Origin: a bacterium
Lineage (GTDB): Bacteria; CG2-30-53-67; CG2-30-70-394
Assembly: GCA_024278555.1 (NCBI GenBank)
Contig: JAJRSX010000029.1
Location: 1 to 18,219, forward strand
Reading direction: 5' to 3'
DNA: 18,219 nucleotides
Shown here: in pieces, positions 2,533 through 8,734 of the stretch
Layout of the letters: every line of letters starts with the position of its first letter
How positions within the stretch are numbered: position 1 is the first letter of the stretch
Translations under genes and position numbers: made by a program
Notes under the pieces: generated by a model
The model's input: the letters and a program-made list of their open reading frames with translations, nothing else
Told to the model about the DNA's origin: nothing
Databases searched by the model: none

Positions 2533-3093
2533 TCACCAGTAGCGCACCCGCCCGGTGTCCACGTGGACAAAGCCCGAGCGCGGGTAGTAGCCGACGCCGC
2601 CCCGGCGCAGGCGGCGGGCGGCGGCGTGGAGGCGCGGGAGGTCGCAGCCGGGGAGGCGGATGTCGATCGCCTTGCCCTGCATGTGCAGCGAGTGGCGCGC
2701 CACGTGGTGGCCCTCGCGACGCAGGCGGGCGTTGGTGGCCGGCGAGCGGTAGCCGGAGATCACCTGGAAGCAGCCGCCCATGCCGAGGCTGGCCTGGAGG
2801 TCGCCCAGGAGGGTGAGGAGAGCCGGATCGATGGCGTGGACCGCGCCGTTGCGATGGTCGCGCAAGATGTGGTCCACCCTCGCCATCATCTGCGGCGGGC
2901 AGGGGCAGCCATCAGCAACGGTGAGGGTGAGGTCCTCGCCCGTGTGCAGGTTGTGGAGGGAGAGGGTGTGCGTGGGCGGGTGGAGGGCGGCACGCGCCGG
3001 GCGCGGCAGAGCGAGGGTGGCGAGGGCGGCGGCGCCGGCGGCGAGGAGCTGCCGCCGGCTCAGACAGAAGGGGGCCGAGGGCTCAATCTCCAT
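2533..3093 (-). CDS. mepK: MepK-like murein endopeptidase (DUF882/M15-type), Tat-exported
   Basis: 186 residues. E. coli MepK (YcbK) is a periplasmic zinc endopeptidase that cuts peptidoglycan crosslinks, notably 3-3 (mDAP-mDAP) bonds. The N-terminus has a Tat signal: SRRQLLA at about residues 12-18, an alanine/leucine-rich h-region, then ARA before the mature chain. The zinc-site residues of the family are present: ISGYRSP, HSLHMQGKAID (His and Asp ligands) and, near the end, VGYYPRSGFVHVDTG (His ligand). I chose ATG 3093 rather than the upstream in-frame start at 3192 because AAGGAAG lies five bases before it and the Tat signal begins there. This start overlaps the 3' end of the L,D-transpeptidase gene by 11 bp, so translation is probably coupled. 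The ldtD-mepK pairing also occurs in E. coli. Confidence 0.9.
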   Translation of the reverse strand: MEIEPSAPFCLSRRQLLAAGAAALATLALPRPARAALHPPTHTLSLHNLHTGEDLTLTVADGCPCPPQMMARVDHILRDHRNGAVHAIDPALLTLLGDLQASLGMGGCFQVISGYRSPATNARLRREGHHVARHSLHMQGKAIDIRLPGCDLPRLHAAARRLRRGGVGYYPRSGFVHVDTGRVRYW

Positions 3094-4702
3094 GGGGGCT
3101 TCCTTGCGGGGCTGGGGGGCGGTCGAGGGCGGCGGCGAGGCGCCGGTCGCGGCCGTAGATGTCATCACGGAACTGGAGGACGCCTGTCTCATCGACCCAC
3201 GCGGTGAGGTAGAGGAGACAAACGGTCACCGGCTGGGGGAGCGAAACGGTCTGCCGCCGGCCGGTGGCAATGGCGGTGACCACCCGCGCCTCATCCCACG
3301 CCGGCCCGAGGAGGGCGGTGGCGAGCTGAAGGGGACGGGCGACCCGGATGCAGCCGTGGCTGAAGGTGCGCACCCGGGCGTCAAACAGAGCGGTGGCCGG
3401 CGTGTCGTGGAGGTAGACATGAAAACGGTTGGGGAATATGAACTTGACGCGGCCGAGAGGATTCATCGGGCCGGGCCGCTGGCGCAAGGCGTAGGGGAAG
3501 TGGCTCACGGTGATGCCGCGCCAGTCGATGGTGTCAGGGGCGACCTTCCTGTAACCATGGAACACATCGAAACCATGGCGCATGAGCCATCCCGAATCGC
3601 GGCGCAGGCGCGGGAGGATGTCGCGGGTGGCGATGGAGCGGGGCACAGTCCACGCCGGGTTGAAGACCAGGTAGGTCATCGGCTCGGCGAAGACCGGGGT
3701 GTGCCAGAAACGGCGGCCCACCACCACCGCCATGGCCAGCCGGGTATGGCCCCCCTCCACCAGGCGCAGGCGGTAATCGGCGATGTTCACCTCCAGGTAT
3801 CGCCCCTGCTTGCGCGGGCTCCTCCGCAGCCGCTCCAGGTTGAGGGCGATCTGGCGCGCCCGCGCCGTTGCCGGGACGTTGAGGGCTCGCCGCGTCGCCG
3901 GCCCCACGACCCCATCGTTGGCGAGGCCATGGCGGGCCTGAAAGCGGCGCACTGCCGCCTCGACGCGACCGTCGAAGAGGTCGCCGGCGGCCTCCCCGGA
4001 CTCCAGGAGGCGGCGGCGCAGGATCGCCACCTGCCCCCCGTGGCTGCCGAGGCGCAGGAGGGGGCCGGGGGCAAGCGCCGGCCAGCCGCCGTGGTGGGCG
4101 ATCGCCCGGTAGCGGGCCAGGGCCTGGCGCATGCGGCCGTAACGGTCCTGGGGTGGCAGGAGGTGGGCCAGGGCGGCGACGATGCTCCCCCTGGCAACCG
4201 CCTGCTCCAAGACCCGCACCACGTCCACCGGACCGCGGCGCGCGAACCACTCCGCCTCCACGGTGACCGGGTTCACGCACCCCGCCGAGTAGTGGCAGCC
4301 GAGCAGGAGGAAGGCATCGCTCAGGAGGAGGTCGAGCTCGGCGGCGGCCACGGGCGCGAGCGCCTGCTCCCGGACGGCGGCGAGGCGGCGGCGCAGCTCC
4401 GGCAGGTGGTAGCGATCGGGCAGGAGCCCCTCTTCCGAGGCCCGTCCCACCGCCTCGACCAGCTCCTCGGCCCGCCCGAGGGGACGTCCTCCCTCGGACC
4501 AGAGGGGGCGGTGGTCGCGGCGACCGTAGAGGCGACGCAGGCTGTCCACGGCGTGGACAGGGATACCGCGGCCACGGCTGGCGACGAGCGCCTCGATCTG
4601 CGCCGCCACGGGCGTCGCGACCGGCCTGGTCGGTGGCGCCATCGCCAGGGTGGCGGCCGCCAGGAGGAGGACGAGGCGGAGGAGAGGCGGCAGACGGGAC
4701 AC
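3083..4702 (-). CDS. ldtD: LdtD-like L,D-transpeptidase (YcbB family)
   Basis: 539 residues from the GTG at 4702. Periplasmic enzyme that forms 3-3 crosslinks in peptidoglycan using a catalytic cysteine. Order: hydrophobic signal sequence (LPPLLRLVLLLAAATLA), scaffold region, a peptidoglycan-binding domain at about residues 216-272 (VRRFQARHGL, DGVVGPATRRALN), then the YkuD catalytic domain with HDTP and SHGCIRV (nucleophile near residue 450). E. coli LdtD is 615 aa, so the length fits. The frame stays open upstream to 4876, but that extension is Arg-rich, would bury the signal sequence and runs into the large palindrome. GGAGGAG lies 12 bases before GTG 4702, rather far; GTG 4756 is the alternative. 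The MepK-like gene overlaps its 3' end. Confidence 0.92.
   Translation of the reverse strand: MSRLPPLLRLVLLLAAATLAMAPPTRPVATPVAAQIEALVASRGRGIPVHAVDSLRRLYGRRDHRPLWSEGGRPLGRAEELVEAVGRASEEGLLPDRYHLPELRRRLAAVREQALAPVAAAELDLLLSDAFLLLGCHYSAGCVNPVTVEAEWFARRGPVDVVRVLEQAVARGSIVAALAHLLPPQDRYGRMRQALARYRAIAHHGGWPALAPGPLLRLGSHGGQVAILRRRLLESGEAAGDLFDGRVEAAVRRFQARHGLANDGVVGPATRRALNVPATARARQIALNLERLRRSPRKQGRYLEVNIADYRLRLVEGGHTRLAMAVVVGRRFWHTPVFAEPMTYLVFNPAWTVPRSIATRDILPRLRRDSGWLMRHGFDVFHGYRKVAPDTIDWRGITVSHFPYALRQRPGPMNPLGRVKFIFPNRFHVYLHDTPATALFDARVRTFSHGCIRVARPLQLATALLGPAWDEARVVTAIATGRRQTVSLPQPVTVCLLYLTAWVDETGVLQFRDDIYGRDRRLAAALDRPPAPQGSPHGD
3099..3105 (-). promoter_or_regulatory. Ribosome binding site of the mepK-like gene
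   Basis: AAGGAAG on the minus strand, five bases before ATG 3093 and inside the end of the ldtD-like gene. It supports the short start and translational coupling. Confidence 0.7.
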
Positions 4703-4714
4703 AGCGGCGCGATT

Positions 4715-4721
4715 CTCCTCC
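4715..4721 (-). promoter_or_regulatory. Probable ribosome binding site for the ldtD-like gene
   Basis: GGAGGAG on the minus strand, 12 bases upstream of GTG 4702. The spacing is longer than usual, but the downstream frame begins directly with a good signal peptide. This argues against the longer reading frame. Confidence 0.45.
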
Positions 4722-4790
4722 GCCGAGGGGGCGCATGCATCCCCCTCCTGTCTCACCCCCCGGTCCCTCTCCCGCCCCGGTAAATCTACA

Positions 4791-4969
4791 GACGCCCAGG
4801 CGTCTGTCGGACTTAGGCACGATCTACTGCGGGAAAGCGGATCTCGGCCCGGATCGCGCCCCGTTCTTCGTTGCATAGGCCCACTATGCGCCTCGAACGG
4901 GCCACAATCCGGACTCGAGCCCGCTTTCCCTCGCGACGATCGCCAAAGCCCGACAGACTCCTAGGCGTC
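4791..4969. repeat. 179-bp imperfect palindrome between nifJ and ldtD
   Basis: Two arms of about 87 nt surround a 5-nt centre (4879-4883). Matching blocks: 4791-4800 with 4960-4969 (9/10), 4801-4810 with 4950-4959 (9/10), 4831-4840 with 4921-4930 (10/10), 4849-4854 with 4907-4912 (6/6), 4860-4866 with 4895-4901 (7/7) and 4873-4878 with 4884-4889 (6/6). The left arm also holds its own hairpin, ACAGACGC-CCAG-GCGTCTGT, at 4788-4807. Both outer ends read GACGCC going inwards. The nifJ stop codon and last two codons lie inside the right arm. It looks like a non-coding palindromic or MITE-type element; no second copy is visible in this window. It could also act as a 3' end structure for nifJ mRNA. 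Confidence 0.8.
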
Positions 4970-7900
4970 GTTGCCGCCGTTCCCGGCCGCCTGGAGCTGT
5001 AGCCCCGCCAGGTGGCGGTAGACCTGCACCCGCCGCTCCGCCGCCTCCTGTGCCTGGGCGGCGAGGCGGTGGAAGCGGGCCGGGTCGATCCGCTCGACCA
5101 TCCGGAAGCGGGTCTCGTGGCGCATGAACTCGGCCACCGGGAGGGTCGGCTCCTTGGCGTCGAGGATCAACGGCGGCTCGCCGGCGGCGAGGCGTCGCGG
5201 GTCGAAGCGGTAGAGCGGCCAGATGCCCGAGGCGACCACCCGCTTCTGCTGCTCGACGCCGAAGGCGAGGTCGTAGCCATGGGCGATGCAGTGGGAGTAG
5301 GCGAGGATGAGCGACGGCCCCGGGTAGGCCTCGGCCTCGGCGATCGCCTTCACCGTCTGCGCGTCCTTGGCGCCGAAGGCGATGCTCGCGACGTAGACGT
5401 GGCCGTAGCTCATCGCCATGAGCCCCAGGTCCTTCTTCGCCACCCCCTTGCCGGCGGTGGCGAACTTGGCGGCGGCGCCCAGGGGCGTCGCCTTCGACGC
5501 CTGGCCGCCGGTGTTGGAGTAGACCTCCGTGTCCATCACCAGGACGTTGACGTTGTGGCGCAGCGACAGGACGTGGTCCAGCCCGCCGTAGCCGATGTCG
5601 TAGGCCCAGCCGTCACCGCCGAAGATCCACACTGAGCGGTCCACCAGGGCATCGGCCACCTGCGCCAGCCGCCGGGCGCGCGGGTCAGCGGCGGTGGCCA
5701 GCTTCCGGCGCAGGGCAACGACCCGCTCGCGCTGTTCCTCGATGCCTGCGGGGGTCGACTGGTCGGCCCCGAGGAGCGCGTCGGTGAGGGTGGCGCCGAT
5801 CTCGCCTCCCATGGCCGCCAGCAGGGCTTCCGCCTCGCGCCGCTGCCCCTCGACCCCGAGCCTAAGGCCGAGGCCGAACTCGGCGTTGTCCTCGAACAGC
5901 GAGTTGGCCCACGCCGGACCGCGACCGTCCGCGTTCGTGGTGTACGGGGTGGTGGGGAGGTTGCCGCCGTAGATCGACGAGCAGCCGGTGGCGTTGGCGA
6001 TGATCGTGCGGTCGCCAAAGAGCTGGGTGACCAGCTTGATATACGGGGTCTCGCCGCACCCGGGACAGGCGCCCGAGTACTCGAAGAGGGGCTCTAGGAG
6101 CTGCGTCTGCTTGACGTTCAGCTTGTCGAGCTGGGTCCGCTTCACCTCGGGGAGATCGAGGAAGAAGTCGTAGCGCGCCCGCTCCTGCTCCAGGACCTCG
6201 AAGCGGTCGACCATGTTGATCGCCTTGCGCCGCGGGTTGGCCTTGTCCTTGGCCGGACAGACCTCGGTGCACAGGCGGCAGCCGGTGCAGTCGTCCGGCG
6301 CCACCTGGATGGTGAACCTCCAGCCGGCAAACGGCTTGCCCTTGAACTTCCACGACAGGAAGCCGTCCGGGGCTCCCTCCAGGGCCTCCTCCGGGTACGC
6401 CTTGGCACGGATCGCCGCGTGCGGGCAGACCATCGCGCACTGGTCGCACTCGGTACACAGCTCCGGCTCCCACACCGGCACGGAAAGCGCCGTGCCCATC
6501 TTCTCCCACCGCGTCGTCCCGGTCGGCCAGGTGCCGTCCGGGGGGAAGGCGGAGACCGGCAGGTGGTCGCCGAGGCCGCCCATCATCAGGGCGGTTACCC
6601 TTTGAACGAAGTCGGGGGCCGCGGCGCTCACCACCGGCGGCCGGGTGTGGTCGCTGGTGGCGGCCGCGGGGACCTCGATCTCGTGCAGGTGGCTCAGGGC
6701 GGCGTCCACCGCCTCGAAGTTGCGCCGCACCACCTCCTCGCCCTTCTTGCCGTAGGTCTTCTCGATCGCCTCCTTGATCTTGGCGATCGCCTCCTCCTTG
6801 GGGAGGACCCCGGAGAGGGCGAAGAAGCAGGTCTGCATCAGGGTGTTGGTGCGCCGGCCCATGCCCACCTCGGCGGCCACTGCGTAGGCGTCGATGGCGT
6901 AGAGCTTCAGCCCCTTGGCGACGATCTGCTCCTGCATCTCCCGCGGCAGGTGGTCCCACACCTCCTCCGTGGGGAAGGGGGCGTTGATCAGCAGGGTCGC
7001 GCCGGGGGCGGCGGCGGCCAACATGTCGAACTTGTCGACGAAGGGGAACTGGTGGCAGGCGACGAAGGAGGCCTGGCGGATCAGGTACGGGGCGCAGATC
7101 GGCTGCGGCCCGAAGCGCAGGTGGGAGATGGTCACCGCCCCCGACTTCTTTGAGTCGTAGACGAAGTACCCCTGGACGAAGAGGTCCGTGCCCTCGCCGA
7201 TGATCTTGATGGTGTTCTTGTTCGCCCCCACGGTGCCGTCGGAGCCCAGCCCGTAGAAGATCGCCCGCACCGTCTCCGGCGCTTCGATGTCGAAGCCCTC
7301 GTCCCAGGGGAGCGAGGTGTGGCCCACGTCGTCGACGATGCCGACGGTGAAGTGGTTTTTCGGGGTCGACGCGCACGCCGCCTCGAAGACCCCCTTGACC
7401 ATCGCCGGGGTGAACTCCTTGGAGGAGAGGCCGTAGCGACCGCCCACCACCGTGGGCCGCTCAGTCAGCGGCAGGGTGCCTCCCTGCGCCGCCTCGGCCA
7501 CCGCGGTGACCACGTCGAGGTAGAGGGGCTCGCCCACGCTCCCGGGCTCCTTGGTGCGGTCGAGCACGGTGATCGTCCGGGTGGTCGCCGGCATCGCCGC
7601 GAGGAGCCGGTCGGCGGCAAAGGGCCGGTAGAGACGCACCGTCACCACCCCGACCCGCTCGCCCGCCTCGACGAGACGCGCCACGGTCTCGCGCACCGTC
7701 TCCGCGCCCGAGCCCATCGCCACCACCACCCGCTCCGCCTCCGGGTGGCCGGTGTAGTCGAAGAGGCGGTAGGTGCGGCCGGTCTGCGCGGCAAAGCGCG
7801 CCATCATCGACTCCACCACCTCCGGGCACGCCGCGTAGAAGGGGTTGCACGCCTCGCGCGCCTGGAAGAAGCAGTCGGGGTTTTGGGCCGAGCCGCGCAG

Positions 7901-8545
7901 CACCGGCCGGTCCGGGTCCAGCTCCCGGGCGCGGTGGTCCAGGAGGGCCTGCTCGTCGATCAGCGACCGCAGGTCGTCGTCCGAGAGGGTGCGGATCTTG
8001 GCGAGCTCGTGGGAGGTGCGGAAGCCGTCAAAGAAGTGGATGAAGGGGATGCGCGAGGAGAGCGACGCTGCCTGGCCGATGAGGGCCATGTCGTGCGCCT
8101 CCTGCACCGACGAGGAGGCCAACAGGGCCATGCCGGTCTGGCGGCACGCCATCACGTCCGAGTGGTCGCCGAAGATCGACAGGGCGTGGGTGGCCAGGCA
8201 GCGCGCCGCCACGTGCAGGCAGAAGCCGGTGAGCTCGCCGGCGATCTTGTAGAGGTTGGGGATCATCAACAGGAGCCCCTGCGAAGAGGTGAAGGTGGTG
8301 GCCAACGCCCCCCCCTGCAGCGCCCCGTGGATGGCCCCGGCCGCCCCCCCTTCCGACTGCATCTCGGTGAGCGACGGCACCGTGCCCCAGATGTTCTTTT
8401 TCCCCTTCACCGCCCACTCGTCGGAGATCTCCCCCATGGGCGATGACGGGGTGATCGGATAGAGGGCGATGGCCTCGTTGAGCCGGTAGGCCACCGAGGC
8501 GACCGCCTCGTTGCCGTCCATCGTCACCATCTTTGCCTCGGCCAT
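4961..8545 (-). CDS. nifJ: Pyruvate:ferredoxin (flavodoxin) oxidoreductase
   Basis: 1194 residues, the normal size of the single-chain homodimeric enzyme. It oxidises pyruvate with CoA to acetyl-CoA and CO2, passing electrons to ferredoxin or flavodoxin in the cytoplasm. Order: N-terminal pyruvate/TPP domain (YPITPSSPMGE, about residues 31-41), the gamma-type domain (SDGTVGANKNT, about 430-440), a two-cluster ferredoxin domain (CTECDQCAMVCP near 700 and CTGCRLCTEVCP near 752), then the TPP domain with CPGCGE (near 827), ANATGCSS, GDGWAYDIG (near 973) and SNTGGQ. The C-terminal cluster cysteines, including SHC, are present. Start: ATG 8545 has GGAGG five bases upstream and is preferred over the ATG at 8557, which overlaps that site. 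The stop codon lies inside the 179-bp palindrome. ftsZ is upstream and the ldtD-like gene downstream, on the same strand. Confidence 0.97.
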   Translation of the reverse strand: MAEAKMVTMDGNEAVASVAYRLNEAIALYPITPSSPMGEISDEWAVKGKKNIWGTVPSLTEMQSEGGAAGAIHGALQGGALATTFTSSQGLLLMIPNLYKIAGELTGFCLHVAARCLATHALSIFGDHSDVMACRQTGMALLASSSVQEAHDMALIGQAASLSSRIPFIHFFDGFRTSHELAKIRTLSDDDLRSLIDEQALLDHRARELDPDRPVLRGSAQNPDCFFQAREACNPFYAACPEVVESMMARFAAQTGRTYRLFDYTGHPEAERVVVAMGSGAETVRETVARLVEAGERVGVVTVRLYRPFAADRLLAAMPATTRTITVLDRTKEPGSVGEPLYLDVVTAVAEAAQGGTLPLTERPTVVGGRYGLSSKEFTPAMVKGVFEAACASTPKNHFTVGIVDDVGHTSLPWDEGFDIEAPETVRAIFYGLGSDGTVGANKNTIKIIGEGTDLFVQGYFVYDSKKSGAVTISHLRFGPQPICAPYLIRQASFVACHQFPFVDKFDMLAAAAPGATLLINAPFPTEEVWDHLPREMQEQIVAKGLKLYAIDAYAVAAEVGMGRRTNTLMQTCFFALSGVLPKEEAIAKIKEAIEKTYGKKGEEVVRRNFEAVDAALSHLHEIEVPAAATSDHTRPPVVSAAAPDFVQRVTALMMGGLGDHLPVSAFPPDGTWPTGTTRWEKMGTALSVPVWEPELCTECDQCAMVCPHAAIRAKAYPEEALEGAPDGFLSWKFKGKPFAGWRFTIQVAPDDCTGCRLCTEVCPAKDKANPRRKAINMVDRFEVLEQERARYDFFLDLPEVKRTQLDKLNVKQTQLLEPLFEYSGACPGCGETPYIKLVTQLFGDRTIIANATGCSSIYGGNLPTTPYTTNADGRGPAWANSLFEDNAEFGLGLRLGVEGQRREAEALLAAMGGEIGATLTDALLGADQSTPAGIEEQRERVVALRRKLATAADPRARRLAQVADALVDRSVWIFGGDGWAYDIGYGGLDHVLSLRHNVNVLVMDTEVYSNTGGQASKATPLGAAAKFATAGKGVAKKDLGLMAMSYGHVYVASIAFGAKDAQTVKAIAEAEAYPGPSLILAYSHCIAHGYDLAFGVEQQKRVVASGIWPLYRFDPRRLAAGEPPLILDAKEPTLPVAEFMRHETRFRMVERIDPARFHRLAAQAQEAAERRVQVYRHLAGLQLQAAGNGGNDA

Positions 8546-8734
8546 GACCACCTCCATGCGCGGCCGCCGTCACCCGGCGGCGAGTAAAAAAAGCGCGGCA
8601 GGATACCGCAAAAGTCGCATGGGTTCAGCCACGTCCCCCCGAAACGGTCATCCGGGGGTGCTGGCCACCCAGGCGCGCAGTCGGTGGAGGAGCGCCGCAA
8701 CGCGGCGGCCGACCCGACACGCCACCGCCCACCT
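8546..8734. other. Structured leader and upstream region of nifJ
   Basis: No gene is seen here. Directly before the nifJ ribosome site is a perfect 7-bp hairpin, GCCGCCG-TCACC-CGGCGGC (8563-8581). An A-run at 8586-8592 reads as T on the minus strand but precedes the hairpin in the nifJ direction, so it is not a terminator for nifJ transcripts. A possible minus-strand -10, TATCCT, lies at 8600-8605 with a poor -35. Two further small inverted repeats are present, CCCCCG/CGGGGG near 8635-8658 and GCCGC-AAC-GCGGC near 8697-8709. Confidence 0.4.
8551..8555 (-). promoter_or_regulatory. Ribosome binding site deciding the nifJ start
   Basis: GGAGG on the minus strand, five bases before ATG 8545. The upstream ATG at 8557 overlaps it and has no site of its own. 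Confidence 0.75.

Follow-up and report, generated by a model that had tools for sequence, protein, structure and literature searches.

Several described repeat families resemble the palindrome analysed here. REP/BIME sequences are likewise extragenic, strand-specific imperfect hairpins, but their units measure 20-40 bp (PMC3733652), as against about 168 bp, with a target-site duplication and DDE-type ends, in the present element. YPAL/RU-2 of Yersinia and ERIC are hairpin-forming intergenic repeats of about 127-168 bp (PMC2759123). The Rickettsia palindromic elements (RPE), about 150-170 bp long, lie in frame in housekeeping genes and add a peptide of ~50 amino acids; in the 2024 review of prokaryotic MITEs that describes them, no IS1182-type or CTAG-targeting MITE appears, and RPE-like in-frame insertion outside Rickettsia is treated as merely conceivable (PMC10969869). 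IS1272, a member of the IS1182 family, has been described as replacing target stem-loops without a target-site duplication (PMC5678879), in contrast to the 4-bp CTAG duplication reported below.

The window, that is, the whole stretch of 18,219 nucleotides analysed, contains a long palindrome directly behind nifJ. We propose that this palindrome is a non-autonomous MITE, very probably moved in trans by a DDE transposase of the IS1182 family that acts at CTAGGAGYCTGTCGGACTT ends, and inserting at CTAG with a 4-bp duplication.

Results and discussion

An imperfect palindrome that ends nifJ

Alignment with 29 genomic copies places the element at positions 4796-4964 of the window, a 169-bp imperfect palindrome. 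The original prediction had recognised a palindrome after nifJ with a 5-nt centre, and in this it was right: the inverted arms 4791-4818/4942-4969 and 4831-4866/4895-4930 pair without gaps at 86% and 72%, respectively, the centre lies at 4879-4883, and the predicted RNA fold of 4780-4975 has a minimum free energy of -104.5 kcal/mol, as compared with a mean of -65.6 for shuffled sequences (z = -8.4; 0 of 200 shuffles equal it). The extent then given, 4788-4969 (179 bp), is too wide. The GACGCC taken to form shared outer ends is a match between the two flanks (GACGCC/GGCGTC) that is absent from other copies, and the 8-bp hairpin assigned to the left arm is a local 9-bp hairpin (ACAGACGCC/GGCGTCTGT, 4788-4807) straddling the element's end, in which the flank (4788-4796) pairs with the mutated terminal repeat of this copy (4799-4807); it is specific to the window copy and no feature of the family.

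Covariance and HMM searches orient the copy on the minus strand, which corresponds to strand B, the better-folding strand that carries GATCGTCGCGAG...GAGGCGCATAG; the ends of the copy are CCAGGCGTCTGTCGGACTT ... AAGCCCGACAGACTCCTAG. The left terminal inverted repeat, CCAGGCGTCTGTCGGACTT (4796-4814, plus strand), has 2 positions mutated relative to the consensus CTAGGAGYCTGTCGGACTT, and the right one, placed by the alignment of copies and a pattern search, reads CTAGGAGTCTGTCGGGCTT on the minus strand (4946-4964). At the apex a GCATAG/CTATGC stem with a 5-nt loop (4873-4889) is flanked by a nearly invariant asymmetric internal loop, CGT/GCCTC (GAGGCG/AACGA on strand B).

The terminal CTAG at 4961-4964, which we interpret as the target-site duplication from homologous Extensimonas copies, supplies the stop codon TAG (4963-4961, minus strand) of nifJ, so the stop codon of this gene (4961-8557, minus strand; pyruvate:ferredoxin/flavodoxin oxidoreductase) is the element's end. 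The last two codons of nifJ had also been placed in the arm, yet apart from the stop only one base of a GCC codon falls within the element. The name nifJ is that of the original prediction, and the 4Fe-4S CxxC motifs of the reading frame are consistent with it. The next gene downstream (3083-4740, minus strand; start uncertain within 4702-4740) is, judging by motif, presumably L,D-transpeptidase-like, and the copy sits in the gap between the two, outside genes.

Multiple copies in the genome, none behind nifJ of the relative

The draft genome to which the window belongs (3.06 Mb, 211 contigs) contains 73 matching pieces, which resolve into about 30 distinct, nearly complete copies and a number of fragments, and several contigs begin or end within a copy. 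The core of the terminal repeat occurs 48 + 42 times at no more than 2 mismatches, against 1 + 0 for the reversed control pattern. The dozens of copies have the same CTAG-bounded ends, as would be expected of the mobile element first suspected. The genus is represented by only one other genome; its element copies are 74-80% identical, but its nifJ ends differently (...TLTTP-TAG) and has no palindrome behind it, indicating that the insertion behind nifJ is lineage-specific. Together, the many CTAG-bounded copies and the element-free nifJ of this relative bear out the suggestion that an element had inserted at the 3' end of the gene; a single copy, conserved in all relatives, had been named as the outcome that would speak against it, and the element is instead multicopy and absent from the same-genus nifJ. 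At the sensitivity used for the first sample, its 58 more distant genomes yielded no copies. Two copies in the window's own genome (L020, L029) have a larger apical loop, e.g. GGGCAGGAGCCCGCTCCTACCGC.

A very stable hairpin immediately after a stop codon, with strand B co-directional with the gene and a strand-biased structure that appears to be under selection, is also what one would expect of a dedicated nifJ transcription terminator or regulatory RNA conserved in place. We regard this explanation as very improbable, because copies lie at many unrelated loci and none at the same-genus nifJ, because they show no orientation preference relative to neighboring genes (of gene 3' ends within 30 bp, 26 lie upstream of the strand-B start and 24 at the strand-B end), and because the element has no match in Rfam above the gathering score. 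An intrinsic terminator in particular can be rejected, since no T-run follows position 4796 on the minus strand and orientation bias is lacking, as just described.

Ends in common with IS1182

The MITE reading draws on a candidate autonomous partner. The 19-bp terminal repeat matches the ends of IS1182-family elements in the form CTAG(G/C)AGYCTGTCGGACTT: elements in four other genomes carry it at each end, and the one in the window's own genome, which is cut by the contig end, carries it at its intact end. There an IS1182-type reading frame lies ~48 bp inside an exact terminal repeat (C65:11386). With the transposase of this IS as the query in 16 other genomes, we found five IS elements of 1534-1625 bp in four genomes; all five carry the repeat at both ends, and two of them adjoin a MITE through a shared CTAG. 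An IS1182-family transposase (NCBIfam NF033551) also lies between matching ends in two further stretches, L121, which scores above the cut-off, and L113, whose shorter reading frame scores below it; the IS of L118, in which the transposase is masked, was left out of the identified elements. Since a match at 1e-20 was obtained in only 4 of the 16 genomes, the partner has probably often been lost or has diverged. The MITE has no transposase and has nothing in common with the IS beyond the 19 bp; with unrelated interiors, it is no simple internal-deletion derivative of IS1182.

In two stretches (L434, L435; genomes G469, G470) an IS1182 element and a MITE copy are joined through one shared CTAG. 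Variant ends, CTAGCAGCCTG...CAGGCTGCTAG, altered in step at both ends, occur in L247, L254, L434 and L435, among MITEs and the Extensimonas IS1182.

The element thus shows the features by which MITEs are recognised: a length below 600 bp, no transposase gene, terminal inverted repeats, multiple dispersed copies, precise ends, an autonomous partner with the same ends, and a target-site duplication, the last seen at empty sites of copies other than the one in the window. Mechanistically, the 19-bp ends CTAGGAGYCTGTCGGACTT would be recognised by the IS1182-family DDE transposase acting in trans, a mode of mobilisation that we infer from the shared ends.

The target site and the ends of genes

At the window copy the target duplication is not readable from own-genome flanks or from the same-genus nifJ, whose 3' end cannot be aligned with it; moreover, the terminal 4-mers of the copy differ, CCAG at 4796-4799, where most copies have CTAG, versus CTAG at the other end. 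The duplication is readable in Extensimonas. We joined the flanks of copies and looked for them in two further genomes of that genus, where several sites are continuous, most clearly murD, L297, L307 and L243. These empty sites hold a single 4-mer (CTCG, CTGG, CCAG and others), whereas the occupied sites read CTAG-element-CTAG; in murD, for instance, the relatives have GGC-CTCG-GGG or GGC-CTGG-GGG in place of CTAG...CTAG. Hence the target is CTAG, which is duplicated, and a copy of 169 bp adds a net 165 nt. Tandem MITE copies have one CTAG in common (C47:17937-18270 and C23:1633-1966 of the Extensimonas perlucida genome, G070). In the same genome, some copies (L243, L308) sit in a CTAG belonging to a different palindrome of the host (AGCGCTT...AAGCGCTAGAGGC), which seems to be a distinct repeat found in this genus of Burkholderiales.

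Gene ends, called with a simple coding-potential gene caller that we checked on the window, coincide exactly with the TAG of a terminal CTAG in 28 of 118 copies, and two copies end convergent genes on both sides in this way. Of 543 background CTAG sites, 36 end a gene (odds ratio for copies versus background 4.4, p 3e-7); the odds ratio is 2.4 (p 0.002) if copies are compared with non-coding plus stop sites only. Insertion at a stop-codon CTAG leaves the protein unchanged, and nifJ is one such case: the element would have entered the CTAG of its C-TAG stop codon, and the stop would be retained since CTAG, which includes TAG, reads the same on both strands.

In-frame copies within genes

Among 67 copies examined in Extensimonas perlucida, 17 are located inside called genes, 6 provide the end of a gene at CTAG and 44 are intergenic or otherwise placed; in none of the 67 is a gene truncated inside the element. 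Overall, 13 copies count as intragenic by the test of coding flanks on both sides and the frame of the empty gene, and all 13 keep the frame and are free of stops. The hosts named by NCBIfam are MurD, PdxA, SerB, Mpl, CysN, glucokinase and Sua5/TsaC, along with MutS in the window's sister genome G001, and we take further hosts, from sequence familiarity, to be PepN, a gamma-glutamyltransferase, an acyl-CoA ligase and an aminotransferase. The Extensimonas perlucida inserts, each of 55 amino acids encoded by the element (with predicted peptides such as TLGVESENAPQR), are found in murD (L306, G070:C23:95769-95937), serB (L400), cysN (L410), mpl (L421), pdxA (L423), the aminotransferase gene (L405), pepN (L409), glk (L420) and sua5/tsaC (L399). 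The murD host lies between mraY- and ftsW-like genes, and two other Extensimonas genomes have the empty alleles; similarly, mutS of G001 contains an in-frame copy (L259, 1502-1670) and its orthologue in the window's genome (C190:17788-19338) has no such segment. The host reads strand B in frame 0 (LGACRTLGVESENAPQRGQFLPDSPPHSGAMGQEDGKKWAAAAHSQPTIPKSDRLL) in 16 of the 17 intragenic copies, and strand A in frame 2 is likewise open in 58 of the 67. The inserts are presumably translated.

In-frame insertion with a conserved peptide, as in RPE, is thus seen in 17 of 67 Extensimonas perlucida copies plus murD, and in MutS of G001. The comparison with RPE is made by description, and the present element differs in its occurrence in free-living beta- and other proteobacteria, its defined CTAG target and its IS1182-type ends. 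To our knowledge, RPE-like protein-inserting elements are otherwise known only from obligate intracellular bacteria.

Spread across bacteria

At least 119 stretches from GTDB genomes contain the 19-bp end, mostly as the boundary of palindromes of 160-170 bp. A covariance model recovers copies at up to 178 bits and separates the two strands, often by 70 to 100 bits. All 14 genomes tested individually with this model gave matches, 4 to 144 each, a count in which some are the same place on both strands (Extensimonas perlucida has ~98 distinct ones), and among 398 species genomes sampled evenly across Pseudomonadota, 52 (13%) had a match at E <= 1e-6, a lower bound since few candidates were scored per genome. 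Gamma-, Beta- and Zetaproteobacteria, together with Desulfobacterota-type MAGs, supply the strong matches; those in Verrucomicrobia, Treponema, Bacteroidota and other MAGs reach no more than about 25-50 bits, owe most of this score to the ends, and may represent different MITEs belonging to the same IS group.

Searches of plasmids and phages found element copies only on two Pseudomonas plasmids, whose annotation was uninformative. Ten viral contigs (L200-L209) carry the terminal-repeat core and are possible carriers between hosts. Very short elements of 50-56 bp, hardly more than two terminal repeats head to head, are present in L081 (6736-6788), L102 (528-582), L119 (5449-5504) and L191 (1654-1703).

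A hairpin with a preferred strand

RNAalifold on 24 copies from different classes gave 45 pairs, 26 of which are changed on both sides. In a strand-neutral count over 71 pairs in 49 divergent copies (<85% identity), 2788 cells are Watson-Crick pairs, as compared with a shuffled mean of 2099 (maximum 2139), and 46 of the 71 pairs show at least two pair types, 29 at least three; the copies are related, so that the counts cannot be treated as independent. The covarying stems are separated by unpaired segments that hardly vary, CTACTGC facing CTCGCTACG and, at the apex, CGT facing GCCTC. G-T pairs on strand B outnumber A-C pairs by 226 to 108 (330 versus 231 in the shuffled set), and in 48 of 49 copies the more stable fold is that of strand B (mean -91.6 versus -75.7 kcal/mol), an asymmetry predicted by a function as strand-B RNA or single-stranded DNA and not by a purely double-stranded one. 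Covarying stems, fixed internal loops and the strand-B bias suggest that a single-stranded hairpin is selected, and such selection would keep the arms paired if the strand-B hairpin, as RNA or single-stranded DNA, aids mobility or tolerance when transcribed.

The element may also be a MITE whose arms were matched by quasipalindrome template switching and not by selection on a hairpin. Long, near-perfect inverted-repeat arms are prone to such correction, and the local hairpin formed with the flank at 4788-4807 may illustrate it. Template switching predicts neither the mismatched loops (CTACTGC/CTCGCTACG and CGT/GCCTC), kept nearly invariant across classes and phyla, nor the 2:1 excess of G-T over A-C on one strand; we therefore consider it rather unlikely, bearing in mind that the shared ancestry of the copies weakens the statistics of this argument.

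A strand-specific imperfect hairpin with conserved internal loops resembles, in addition, the single-stranded DNA hairpins recognised by Y1 enzymes, as if this were a REP/BIME-type palindrome moved as single-stranded DNA by an IS200/IS605-type Y1 transposase (TnpA_REP). Y1 transposition leaves no target-site duplication. The 4-bp duplication, the identity of the ends with those of the DDE-type IS1182 and the length of ~168 bp leave this reading with almost no credibility. A relationship to YPAL/RU-2 was rejected as well: the apices look alike by eye, but nhmmer with --max gave no match and RU-2 folds are branched.

Returning to the structured MITE, we suggest tentatively, and at somewhat less than even confidence, that the copies in several proteobacterial classes, Desulfobacterota and the window's lineage form one parasite family, which would maintain a selected one-stranded hairpin and limit its damage by landing in stop codons or, if its frame is open and the net gain is 165 nt, by adding 55 amino acids even to essential proteins such as MurD.

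Conclusions

As a MITE, the element is of an ordinary kind, and it is its breadth, structure and in-frame use that appear to be undescribed in Rfam and the open literature. Text searches for the terminal-repeat string returned nothing relevant in open-licence literature; ISfinder or journals behind a subscription may contain a description.

The family is widespread, present in at least 13% of the sampled Pseudomonadota genomes and with up to ~100 copies per genome, and its palindromic target containing a stop codon provides a clear rule for harmless insertion. The strand-specific structure makes a role for the MITE hairpin testable. Nearly twenty in-frame cases, with empty alleles in related species for at least two (murD and mutS), bear on whether RPE-like protein evolution occurs outside Rickettsia, and if our reading is true, an RPE-like protein-inserting element would exist in free-living bacteria.
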